A DNA stretch of 64,000 nucleotides from Chloroflexota bacterium (GTDB lineage Bacteria; Chloroflexota; Anaerolineae; J102). A program made the position numbers and the translations under genes. The notes under the pieces are model-generated. The model did no database searches, was not told the DNA's origin, and saw only the letters and a program-made list of their open reading frames with translations. Positions 16,949-32,203 of this stretch are shown in pieces. How positions within the stretch are numbered: the first letter of the stretch is position 1; the number at the start of each line of letters is the position of its first letter. The stretch is from positions 248,001 through 312,000 of the forward strand of contig JAKOVD010000032.1 in the NCBI GenBank assembly GCA_029782215.1. Reading direction: 5' to 3'.

Positions 16949-17119
16949 CGGCGTTGCCTCCTGCCAGCACTGTATTGACCGCGAAAGCCCGTGATATTGA
17001 GCCTTCGCGTTCACGTATGATAGCATGGCGGCACTGCAATGACCGACCTCCCGGCGCCCCCAGGGCACGCCTGGCAGCAGGCGCCGCACTCCCAACCTCC
17101 GCGCTCCGGCGCGAACCTT

Positions 17120-18613
17120 ATGCCCACCCCCGCCCGCGTCCGCTTCGCCCCCAGCCCTACCGGCTACCTGCACATCGGCAGCGCCCGCACGGCGCTGTTC
17201 AACTGGCTCTACGCCCGCCACACGGGCGGGCAGTTCATCCTGCGCATTGAGGACACCGACCGCACTCGCCTCCATCCCGGCTCACTGGCCGACATGTTCG
17301 CTAGCTTGCGCTGGTTGGGCCTGCAGTGGGACGAAGGCCCGGAGGCCGACGGCGCCTACGGTCCTTACTTCCAGTCGGAGCGGCTGGAGCTCTACCGCCA
17401 CTGGGCGGACTGGCTGGTGGAGCAGGGGCATGCCTACCGCTGCTACTGCACCCCCGCCGAGTTGGAGCAGATGCGCCAGGAACAGATGGCCCGCAAGGAA
17501 GATCCCGGCTACGACCGCCGCTGCCGCCATCTGACGCCGGCGGAGCGCGCCAGCCGCGAGGCAGCAGGCCTGCCCTACGTGATCCGCCTGGCGGTGCCAC
17601 AGACGGGCCAGGTGACGTTCCACGACATGATTCGGGGGGACATCACCTTCGCCAACGACAAGATCCAAGACGCCGTGTTGCTGAAGTCAGACGGTTGGCC
17701 GACCTATCACCTGGCCAACGTCGTCGACGACCGCTTCATGCAGATCACGCACATCATGCGCGGCGATGAGTGGCTTTCCTCGGTGCCGCTGCACTGGCAC
17801 CTCTACGCTGCCTTCGACTGGGAGCCGCCGGTGTGGGCGCACCTGCCCGTCATCCTCAACCCCAACGGCCAGGGCAAGATGTCCAAACGGGAGATCATCC
17901 GCCCGGACGGCACCGTCATCCCGGTCTACATCCACAGCTACCGCGAGCAGGGCTACCTGCCGGAAGCGATGCTCAATTTCCTCTGCGGCATCGGCTGGGC
18001 GCTGGACGGCTCCACTGAGATCTACGACCTGGAGACGGCCTTGACGGCCTTCGACCTGTCGAGCATCCAGGCCTCGCCGGGCGCCTTTCCCGCCGAGAAG
18101 CTGATCTGGATGAACGGGGTGTACATCCGCCAGCTTGCGCCCGACGATCTCCATGCGCGTTTGGTCCCCTTTCTGAGCCGCCAGCTAAGCGTGCCCGAAG
18201 AGGCGCTGCGGGCGGATCACGGCCTGCGGCTGCTGATCCCCTTCGTCCAGGAGCGCATCAAGACCCTGACCGAAGCGGCGGAGTTCGTCGATTATCTTTA
18301 TGTCGACGTGGTGCCCATGGCCGATCCAGCCGAGCTGGTGCCAGCCAAGACCACCGGCGCCCAGGTTCGGACGGGGCTGGAGCGCACCGCGACTGTCCTG
18401 GAGGCGCTGCCCGTCTGGAGTGAGGCTGCTATCGAAGAGGCGCTGCGCGGCCTGGCCGATGAGCTGGGCCTGAAGCCGGGGCAGTTGTTCAGCGCCATCC
18501 GCGTGGCCGTGACAGGCAAGAAGGTGGCGCCGCCGCTGTTCGTGACCGTAGAGGCGATTGGCCGCGAGCGCGCCGTGGCCCGCCTGCGGCAGGCCATCCC
18601 CTTGGTGCCGTAG
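17120..18613 (+). CDS. gltX: Glutamyl-tRNA synthetase
   Basis: A class I synthetase of 497 residues from the ATG at 17120: RVRFAPSPTGYLHIGS with H18-I-G-S21, the GluRS RIEDTDRTR motif, and K253-M-S-K256-R. It charges tRNA-Glu; because a dedicated GlnRS is encoded nearby, this enzyme is probably discriminating. The ATG at 17039 would add a 27-residue Pro-rich extension with no family counterpart, so the downstream start is preferred; neither has a clear Shine-Dalgarno. The gene is divergent from the cyclase-fold gene, with a -10-like TATGAT at 17016-17021. Confidence 0.96.
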   Translation: MPTPARVRFAPSPTGYLHIGSARTALFNWLYARHTGGQFILRIEDTDRTRLHPGSLADMFASLRWLGLQWDEGPEADGAYGPYFQSERLELYRHWADWLVEQGHAYRCYCTPAELEQMRQEQMARKEDPGYDRRCRHLTPAERASREAAGLPYVIRLAVPQTGQVTFHDMIRGDITFANDKIQDAVLLKSDGWPTYHLANVVDDRFMQITHIMRGDEWLSSVPLHWHLYAAFDWEPPVWAHLPVILNPNGQGKMSKREIIRPDGTVIPVYIHSYREQGYLPEAMLNFLCGIGWALDGSTEIYDLETALTAFDLSSIQASPGAFPAEKLIWMNGVYIRQLAPDDLHARLVPFLSRQLSVPEEALRADHGLRLLIPFVQERIKTLTEAAEFVDYLYVDVVPMADPAELVPAKTTGAQVRTGLERTATVLEALPVWSEAAIEEALRGLADELGLKPGQLFSAIRVAVTGKKVAPPLFVTVEAIGRERAVARLRQAIPLVP

Positions 18614-18677: not shown

Positions 18678-18689
18678 TGCCCTCATTGC

Positions 18690-18761
18690 TGGGGGATAGT
18701 TTAACTGGCAGAACGGGTGACTCTGGATCACTTAGTTGGGGTTCGAATCCCTGTCCCCCAG
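18690..18761 (+). tRNA. tRNA-Gln (anticodon CTG)
   Basis: A 72-base cloverleaf folds fully. Acceptor TGGGGGA pairs with TCCCCCA, D-stem is GTT/AAC, anticodon stem GGTGA/TCACT carries loop CTCTGGA with CTG at 18723-18725, and the T-arm has GTTCGAAT. The discriminator base is G18761 and CCA is not encoded. The T-stem contains two G-T wobbles. It has its own promoter and terminator and is the expected substrate of the GlnRS encoded at 8328. Confidence 0.95.
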
Positions 18762-18766
18762 TCTTG

Positions 18767-18997: not shown

Positions 18998-19663
18998 TCA
19001 GGCGTAGACGAAGACGTTCTGGGCCAGCAGGCGGCTGATATCGTGCCTGGCCTGCTCCACCTCGACGGCAAGCGGGCCGTCAAAGGGCGCCAGGGCGAGC
19101 ACCTTGACGCGGGCGCCGGGAGTCAATCCGATCTCGCGGAAATACCGCAGCATGGCCGGGTCCCGCGACGAAACGCGGAAGATCGGGCGTTCGCCGCCCG
19201 GCTCCAGGTCGATAAGCCGCAGCTCGGCCACAGGATCCAGGGTGCCATCGGCGCGGGGAATGGGGTCGCCGTGGGGACAACAGCAGGGGTGGCCAAGCTG
19301 GGCTTCGAGCCGGTCGACAAACGCGGCGGAAAGAACGTGCTCGAGCCGGTCGGCCTCATCGTCCACCTCATCCCAGCCGAAACCCATCCACTGCACCATC
19401 ATGACCTCCACCAGGCGGTGGGCGCGCAGCACGCGCAGCGCCTCGCTGCGCCCCGCCTCGGTCAGTTCCATCCCGTAATAGGCTGCATAGCGCACCATGC
19501 CGAAGATGTGCAGCTTGCAGGACATGGCCGTCACCGCCGACGGCGTCACAGACAGGGCATCGGCCAACGCGGACGTAGGGACCGGAGTCTGCTGGCGCTC
19601 AAGGCGCAGCAGCGCTTTGAGATAGTCCTGCATGGTAGGGGTCGTCTTCACATGAGGCGTCAT
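18998..19663 (-). CDS. DtxR/MntR-family metal-dependent transcriptional regulator
   Basis: About 221 residues. An N-terminal winged helix (TPTMQDYLKALLRLE ... SALADALSVTPSAVTAM) is followed by the metal-binding/dimerisation domain (ELTEAGRSEALRVLRAHRLVEVM, then a Cys-rich LGHPCCCPHGDPIP loop). A C-terminal SH3-like FeoA-type domain ends the protein. Such proteins repress iron or manganese uptake genes when metal is bound. It is divergent from an FTR1-type iron permease gene, so iron is the likely signal. The ATG at 19663 fits the family start; a GTG at 19681 would add six residues. TTGATA-17-TATATG upstream may be its promoter. Confidence 0.92.
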   Translation of the reverse strand: MTPHVKTTPTMQDYLKALLRLERQQTPVPTSALADALSVTPSAVTAMSCKLHIFGMVRYAAYYGMELTEAGRSEALRVLRAHRLVEVMMVQWMGFGWDEVDDEADRLEHVLSAAFVDRLEAQLGHPCCCPHGDPIPRADGTLDPVAELRLIDLEPGGERPIFRVSSRDPAMLRYFREIGLTPGARVKVLALAPFDGPLAVEVEQARHDISRLLAQNVFVYA

Positions 19664-19716
19664 GATGGAACGGTTTTTCACCTAGTTGAAACTATGAGTA
19701 CAACGGGGTAAATTGC

Positions 19717-19743
19717 CATTTTGTCATATATCGATCATTTTGT
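19717..19743. promoter_or_regulatory. Direct repeat in the dtxR-type/FTR1 control region
   Basis: CATTTTGT occurs at 19717-19724 and again at 19736-19743, 19 bases apart (near two helical turns), inside an AT-rich island in otherwise GC-rich DNA. The copies overlap or abut the proposed -10 of the regulator gene, so they could be an operator for autoregulation. Confidence 0.4.
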
Positions 19744-19753
19744 TCATTATCAA
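19725..19753 (-). promoter_or_regulatory. Proposed promoter of the DtxR-type regulator
   Basis: On the minus strand, TTGATA (19748-19753), 17-base spacer, TATATG (19725-19730), about 60 bases before the start codon. Confidence 0.45.
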
Positions 19754-19769
19754 AGTTTTTTCGCATCTA

Positions 19770-19800
19770 TTGACAATCATGGCAACGATAATTATTATGG
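19770..19800 (+). promoter_or_regulatory. Near-consensus promoter with Fur-like box, upstream of the FTR1 gene
   Basis: TTGACA (19770-19775), exactly 17 bases, TATTAT (19793-19798): 11 of 12 consensus bases. Bases 19786-19800 read CGATAAT-T-ATTATGG, matching 11 of 14 positions of the 7-1-7 Fur consensus TGATAAT-N-ATTATCA, and cover the -10. Binding there would block RNA polymerase, so iron repression of the permease is the natural inference. The leader to the ATG at 19957 would be about 150 bases. Confidence 0.6.
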
Positions 19801-19956
19801 TTTTCATCATAAAAATATAGCACTTCCCCTGACGCGTTCACAAGTCGCCCTCTGGCCTTGCCCGATGGCGCCCGCTGCCGGCGCCCTGGCTCAATGAAGC
19901 TACCGCACAGCCGGCGGCGGCCCCAGGATGGCCTGCTCTCACTTCCCGCAACTTTC

Positions 19957-21036
19957 ATGACAACCTGGCGCCTCACAGCACTCCTCCTATGCGTTGTCTT
20001 CTTGGCAGCGTGCGCCCCGGCAGTTTCACCGGCAAGCCCTGCACCTTCACTCCCTATCAGCATCGGGAACATGGGCGCAGGCTCCCCTGCCCAACACAGG
20101 GCGGCATTCACGACCAGCGAAGAGGCGCGTGAGCAGCAAGGCAAGCCGGCTGCTTCGCCCTTGGCGGCTGCTGCCACCGCTGCCGTTGTCGTCTTCCGCG
20201 AAGGGCTCGAGGCCGTGCTGATCCTGGCCGCCCTGGTTGCCAGCCTGGTGGGCGCCACCCGTGCCTATCGCCGTCCCATGGCCGCAGGTGCGGCAGCGGC
20301 TGTCATGGCCACGTTTCTCACCTGGTGGCTGTCGCAGCGCCTTCTTGCCGGCCTCAGCAGCTACGGCGAGCGCCTGGAAGGCATCGTTTCCCTCGTCGCC
20401 ATCGCCATGCTGCTGTTGGTCACGAACTGGTTCGCACACCGCGTGTACTGGAAGGACTGGACGGCGGGCCTCCACGCCCGTAAGAAAGCACTGCTTGGCG
20501 GCATGGTTTCGGGCCAGATGCTGGGGATTGGGCTCCTGGGTTTTGCCAGCGTCTATCGCGAGGGGTTCGAAACGGTGCTGTTTGTCCAGGCGGTGGCGCT
20601 GGAAAGCGGCTCCCTGATCGCCCTGCAGGGAGCGGTGGTAGGGCTGGCAGGCGTCGCCGTGTTGGGCTACCTGGCGTTCCGGCTGCAGTCACGGCTGCCG
20701 TACAAGCAGATGCTCACGGCCACAGGCGTCCTGCTCGCCGCCGTCCTGGTGGTGATGGTCGGGCACGCCGTGGACGTGCTGCAGGAGGTAGGATGGCTGT
20801 CCCATCACCCGATCCCCGCGCTCGCCCTCCCCGGCTGGTTGGGCTCGTGGTTGGGCGTCTATGCGACCTGGGAGGGCGTCGGCCTGCAAATGGCCGCGGC
20901 AGCGTTCGTTGCCGGCAGCTATTTGCTGGCTGAGCGCCAGGCGCAGCGCAGGCGGCGCCATGCCAAGGTGAACGGACGAGCCGCGCCAAGTGCGGCGGCG
21001 CCGCAGCCCAGCGAGCAGCCGCCAGTGAACGGCTAG
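19957..21036 (+). CDS. FTR1-family iron permease (EfeU-like) with lipoprotein-type N-terminus
   Basis: About 359 residues. The start at 19957 gives a signal sequence with lipobox LAAC, then a short linker and seven or so membrane helices. Both FTR1 signature motifs are present: R81-E-G-L-E85 and R201-E-G-F-E205, the REGxE glutamates that conduct ferric or ferrous iron. The C-terminus is Arg/Pro-rich and cytoplasmic. No EfeO or EfeB lies nearby. Upstream in-frame starts exist at 19858 and 19894 but would bury the signal peptide. Divergent from the DtxR-type regulator and preceded by a strong promoter with a Fur-like box. Confidence 0.9.
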   Translation: MTTWRLTALLLCVVFLAACAPAVSPASPAPSLPISIGNMGAGSPAQHRAAFTTSEEAREQQGKPAASPLAAAATAAVVVFREGLEAVLILAALVASLVGATRAYRRPMAAGAAAAVMATFLTWWLSQRLLAGLSSYGERLEGIVSLVAIAMLLLVTNWFAHRVYWKDWTAGLHARKKALLGGMVSGQMLGIGLLGFASVYREGFETVLFVQAVALESGSLIALQGAVVGLAGVAVLGYLAFRLQSRLPYKQMLTATGVLLAAVLVVMVGHAVDVLQEVGWLSHHPIPALALPGWLGSWLGVYATWEGVGLQMAAAAFVAGSYLLAERQAQRRRRHAKVNGRAAPSAAAPQPSEQPPVNG

Positions 21037-32158: not shown

Positions 32159-32203
32159 AAGTTGCAGGTTGAACGTTCAACGTTGAACGTTCAACCTGCA
32201 ACC
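32139..32203. repeat. GTTGAA repeat block with 42-base perfect palindrome
   Basis: GGTTGAAAGT-like units (32139-32160) run into a perfect palindrome at 32161-32202 that begins GTTGCAGGTTGAACGTT and is centred on AACGTT. It overlaps the murJ 3' end and fills the gap before the convergent foldase gene. As RNA it forms a long hairpin from either strand, so it may serve as a two-way terminator or mRNA 3' barrier. Confidence 0.8.

Follow-up and report, generated by a model that had tools for sequence, protein, structure and literature searches.

The 64,000-nucleotide stretch of Chloroflexota DNA analysed here, which we call the window, comes from a genome assembly of 6.3 Mb in 214 contigs whose nearest relatives are Roseiflexus and other Chloroflexota. 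An island at 19660-19830 (67% AT, 33% GC, against 35% AT and 65% GC for the whole window) divides two divergent genes, and the Pfam domains of their products agree with the preliminary description of an AT-rich island flanked by a DtxR-type regulator and an FTR1 permease. On the minus strand, positions 18998-19681 encode a metal-dependent regulator of the DtxR/MntR family (227 residues from the GTG at 19681; an ATG at 19663 is an equally possible start). The protein has the three-domain layout of that family, consisting of a DtxR-family N-terminal winged helix (PF01325), a dimerisation and metal-binding domain (PF02742) and a C-terminal FeoA/SH3-like domain (PF04023), all over the cut-off, and its solved relatives are 5zr4 and 8pvt. 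It scored 186.5 of 350 bits against the MntR-type NCBIfam model NF047407, under the cut-off, and is not placed in the MntR subfamily. On the plus strand, positions 19957-21036 encode an FTR1-family permease (PF03239) with two REGxE-type motifs in its translation; TIGR00145 fell under its cut-off, the EfeU model NF041756 gave 75.4 of 255 bits, and the permease is not placed in the EfeU subfamily. Its start, read off the translation, is probably ATG 19957, which a lipobox-like LAAC signal follows, rather than TTG 19858. Beyond the regulator gene, a tRNA-Gln gene (18689-18763) comes directly after a glutamyl-tRNA synthetase-type gene (17039-18613).

The near-perfect promoter reported earlier for the permease is borne out. 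On the plus strand at 19770-19798, the hexamers TTGACA (19770-19775) and TATTAT (19793-19798), with a spacer of 17, match at 11/12 positions, and an equally good promoter turned up in 1.5% of the island's dinucleotide shuffles. The leader from the predicted start site to ATG 19957 would be about 150 bases. Looking there for a riboswitch or other RNA element, we obtained nothing from Rfam apart from a tRNA hit. The -10 hexamer is contained in CGATAATTATTATGG (19786-19800), which agrees with the Fur 7-1-7 consensus TGATAATNATTATCA at 11/14 positions. This match had also been described and is present, although matches that good are common: taken alone it is weak, being equalled in 7.6% of island shuffles and found at 42 sites across the 6.3 Mb of the genome. 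The site is better read as a 19-bp odd-centred dyad, AACGATAATTATTATGGTT (19784-19802), which encloses the Fur match and which we propose as an operator over the FTR1 -10. It is a 9-1-9 near-palindrome with the halves AACGATAAT-T-ATTATGGTT and arms matching at 8/9, and 3.4% of island shuffles contain one as good. Its odd centre and AATnATT core, as far as sequence symmetry can tell, are Fur-like and not DtxR-like. When both promoter hexamers were kept constant, 0.15% of shuffles had a dyad and a Fur match this good jointly over the -10, a post hoc figure from a test designed after the site was seen. Elsewhere in the window, near-perfect 9-1-9 dyads of AT-rich sequence are confined to overlapping TTGAACGTTCAACGTTGAACGTTCAA palindromic repeats at 32169-32194.

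Conservation in relatives, to which the preliminary description looked for confirmation of the box, did not appear. At up to two mismatches of 19, the dyad is a single copy in its genome, is not found in the other fetched loci, and does not recur before other iron genes or any fur gene of the same genome. The FTR1/regulator pair of the window is in no relative among the fetched loci, which makes a comparison of the dyad across orthologous promoters impossible; neither of the two congeners has an FTR1 match, and same-family genomes give weak ones of another type. This lack of conservation, together with the frequency of 11/14 Fur matches, is what one would expect if the dyad were no operator at all and, against the GC-rich background of the genome, the -10 of its AT-rich promoter simply resembled a Fur box, leaving the regulator's own palindrome (see below) as the only functional site, if any. 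Against this stands the joint figure of 0.15%, albeit post hoc, and we consider the explanation doubtful.

If the dyad is an operator, which Fur-family protein might use it? In its crystal structure, a Magnetospirillum Fur contacts a conserved G through an essential arginine (PMC4506495); by our own alignment, this G is equated with half-site position 2, where the half-site CGATAAT has a G and CCATAAT does not. The window site resembles the classical Fur box in its 11/14 agreement and in covering the -10 of an iron-uptake gene, and differs from it in the half-site that is without the contacted G, in its single genomic copy and in its outer arms, AAC/GTT. Three Fur-family genes are present in the genome, each associated with a sequence other than the dyad, although these assignments rest on position and not on binding. 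The box before Fur1 is TTTAGAATGATTCTAAA and that before Fur2 is TGCAAATCATTCGCA; a one-mismatch copy of the latter, TGCAACTGATTTGCA, lies 13 bp ahead of a FeoB-like gene (the two GCAA-type boxes are at L259:2779-2793 and L254:5979-5993, on contigs C9 and C201 of the same genome). The Fur3 gene ends a CbiM/CbiQ-type transporter operon with GTTATTGCAAcaaaTTGCAATAAC upstream. This sequence, a perfect 10-4-10 inverted repeat (contig C29, L253, upstream of 6365 on the minus strand), resembles the (Nur-like) site of a nickel or cobalt regulator. The boxes of Fur1 and Fur2 each have an odd centre and an AATnATT-like core, and the dyad matches them at 8/14 and 7/14 positions, respectively. The GCAA-type boxes before Fur2 and the feoB-like gene are like the feoAB1 operator of Magnetospirillum Fur, whereas the window dyad is GATAAT-like. 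Because one Magnetospirillum Fur binds both a GCAA-type operator and a GATAAT box (PMC4506495), Fur2 could, by analogy, accept the window dyad. Assignment of the dyad to Fur is plausible, with no comparative support.

A second candidate operator, absent from the preliminary description and outside the range it covered (19717-19800), is found at the regulator end of the island. The 16-bp palindrome TTTCAACTAGGTGAAA (19676-19691, also written TTTCACCTAGTTGAAA; arms 7/8) reads TTTCAM-CTAG-KTGAAA and, on the regulator's minus strand (19691-19676), overlaps or just precedes the start codon. It is even-centred, as an autoregulatory 6-4-6 operator of the DtxR type would be, with 5/6 arms and a palindromic centre. 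The palindrome alone is not striking, since 14% of island shuffles contain an equal 8-0-8 palindrome, and it has one copy in the genome. Its placement, however, is that of related regulators' 6-4-6 palindromes: it lies 46 bp ahead of codon 13, and the related sites lie 20-52 bp ahead. An exact 6-4-6 palindrome occurs at the same place in 14/35 related regulators against 1.0 expected, counts that are not independent because the 35 are kin, and several of these palindromes have a -10-like TATAAT on one side and the start codon on the other. Because related regulators carry such a palindrome at this place, we propose that 19676-19691 is probably the regulator's autoregulatory site, and a likelier one than the direct repeat first suggested. 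TTTCAMCTAGKTGAAA may be the motif of the window regulator. Chance could in principle have produced both palindromes, each of which is only modestly unusual alone (3.4% and 14% of shuffles), with the two genes constitutive or regulated at other levels. We find this very improbable, as related regulators have their palindromes at the same location as the window regulator and both kinds of gene normally carry metal boxes.

The direct repeat that had been placed over the regulator's promoter does exist, as two copies of CATTTTGT (19717-19724 and 19736-19743, spaced 19 bp apart in 19717-19743), but 9.5% of shuffles have one and the repeat is probably not significant. We rejected it as the regulator's site for this reason and because it differs from the sites of relatives. 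For the regulator itself, sequence matching on the minus strand revealed no strong or single promoter, but a weak candidate, TTGATA-17-TATATG (19725-19753), and an alternative, TTGTGA-18-TATATT (19843-19814). We also screened 301 genomes from the phylum for the palindrome at 19676-19691. A perfect TTTCACCTAGGTGAAA occurs in two others, of one genus, and its neighbours there, a glycerol-channel-like gene and a dihydroxyacetone kinase-like sequence, give a DtxR link no support. These copies (L231:334-349 and L232:1501-1516, from another family of the phylum) lie between CDP-alcohol transferase-like and glycerol-channel-like genes, the kinase-like sequence coming after the latter.

The half-site of the window palindrome is not that of its relatives. 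In a clade that includes Roseiflexus the regulator palindrome is TTTAGGnnnnCCTAAA, and in a second, same-family clade it is TTATGGnnnnCCATAA; the window regulator falls outside both the TTTAGG and the TTATGG operator clades in our tree, on a long branch whose fork is weakly supported. It departs from its relatives at 21 of the 70 columns that are invariant in 13 of them, including positions 49, 55 and 58 in the region of the DNA-binding (recognition) helix and the His98 equivalent. With a regulator this divergent, also around the recognition helix, a different half-site would be expected. Comparison with the DtxR ligand set (Met10, His79, Glu83, His98, Cys102, Glu105 and His106) or its MntR equivalents indicates by alignment that Asp, His, Glu, Glu and His are kept and that Asp107 and Asp111 take the positions of His98 and Cys102. 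The closest kind of regulator is DR2539, the Mn/Fe repressor of Deinococcus radiodurans (PMC3327659), and the solved structures 8pvt, 8pvz and 8pw0, a close match, are probably of this protein. Common to both are a Lys at the MntR Glu11 position, an Asp at the DtxR Met10 position and a C-terminal SH3/FeoA-like domain. They differ in that His98, required in DR2539, corresponds to Asp107 and the Cys102/Glu99 position to Asp111; DR2539 binds an inverted repeat, as the window regulator is predicted to do. No studied relative is closer in domain layout and metal site than DR2539, which responds to Mn(II) as well as Fe(II) (PMC3327659), so the metal of the window regulator could be either. Elsewhere in the same genome, two tandem TTTAGG-type boxes stand ahead of a DtxR-feoB cluster (contig C128, L256:5770-5804), and an MntR-clade operator, TTTAGGTATGCCTAAA, lies just 5' of a heavy-metal P-type ATPase gene (contig C170, L265:2713-2728).

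How FTR1 genes are controlled elsewhere bears on the protein that might occupy the -10 dyad. We read the sequence upstream of FTR1 at 40 loci of the phylum. An IdeR/DtxR box, TTAGGnnnnCCTAA, with no more than one mismatch precedes 19 of the 22 short-form genes (0.29 expected), and several such boxes abut a TTGACA promoter (e.g. L173, L179 and L186). In many short-form promoters (L169-L190; e.g. L173 and L179) a pair of DtxR-type boxes is spaced by about 37 bp. Closest in sequence to the window permease (50-58%) are the long-form genes; these are without TTAGGnnnnCCTAA, and most of them lie close behind another reading frame. In same-family genomes feoB clusters with a DtxR-type gene and a different FTR1. 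These patterns suggest that metal repression of FTR1 is the norm in the phylum, usually through a DtxR-type site. The IdeR/DtxR box TTAGGTTAGSCTAACCTAA, with the core TTAGGNNNNCCTAA (PMC8464063), is a metal-repressor operator over an iron-uptake promoter, as we propose for the window, and it is even-centred 6-4-6 like TTTCAM-CTAG-KTGAAA, with different half-sites. At 19640-19960 of the window, both TTAGGnnnnCCTAA and TTAGGNNNNCCTAA have at least four mismatches, beyond the one allowed.

It is possible, although we think it unlikely, that the protein on the -10 dyad is the DtxR-type regulator, bound there only or at its own palindrome too, and that it so represses FTR1, an altered sequence having replaced the TTAGG-type box of other FTR1 genes. 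The two genes are neighbours in divergent orientation, FTR1 promoters of the phylum as a rule have DtxR-type boxes, and the regulator is unusually divergent, such that the altered dyad would suit its changed recognition helix; moreover, it is the shape of DNA and not its bases that IdeR reads (PMC8464063). No half-site, however, is common to the dyad and the palindrome at 19676-19691, the next-best match to that palindrome in the region is only 10/16, TTAGGnnnnCCTAA is too distant from anything there, and the sites of related regulators are even-centred 6-4-6 where the dyad is odd-centred.

From the observed dyads, promoter, gene identities and equivalent position of the palindromes in related regulators, we infer binding, metal, repression and the protein that uses the -10 dyad as follows. 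We tentatively propose, with a probability of roughly 0.42, that the region holds two operators, one for DtxR-type autoregulation and one odd-centred site of the Fur-family type on the FTR1 -10. The regulator, carrying Fe(II) or Mn(II), would bind the palindrome at 19676-19691 and limit its own synthesis. FTR1 would be transcribed from the TTGACA-17-TATTAT promoter, and when metal is plentiful a metal-loaded repressor on the 19-bp dyad would cover the -10 and block RNA polymerase. The most likely repressor is a member of the Fur family, of which the genome encodes three, with Fur2 the best candidate; a Fur-family protein is favoured at the dyad because of its odd-centred symmetry and AATnATT core, and the even-centred 6-4-6 symmetry of the palindrome points to the DtxR-type protein there. 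The joint shuffle figure, the location of the palindrome, the regulator's divergence, the metal-repressor boxes before FTR1 across the phylum, the same-family clusters with feoB, the odd-centred Fur1 and Fur2 boxes and the dual binding of the Magnetospirillum Fur argue for this two-operator arrangement; the modest agreement of the dyad with the genome's own Fur boxes (7/14-8/14), its missing G and single copy, the 14% of shuffles that equal the palindrome and the phylum-wide rule of a DtxR-type box at FTR1 argue against it. Of the two-regulator switch offered in the preliminary description, a -10 operator and a second, DtxR-type site both seem likely, but the latter would be the palindrome and not the direct repeat.

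The region is a familiar, ordinary kind of bacterial iron/manganese control point. What the comparison adds is that one fixed place at the DtxR-type regulators of the phylum is taken by 16-bp operators of at least two kinds, each specific to a clade, and that FTR1 genes are predicted targets almost throughout one subtype, the short form. The window locus seems to break both patterns. One conceivable explanation, to which we give little credence, is that the regulator switched operator class, the half-site TTTCAM replacing TTTAGG/TTATGG along with matching changes near the recognition helix and an alteration of the metal site, and that FTR1 lost its DtxR-type box and came under a Fur-family protein. 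If true, one iron-uptake gene would have been rewired between metalloregulator families, from DtxR to Fur. The comparison is more useful than the region alone, supplying concrete sites for testing how the specificity of metalloregulators changes.
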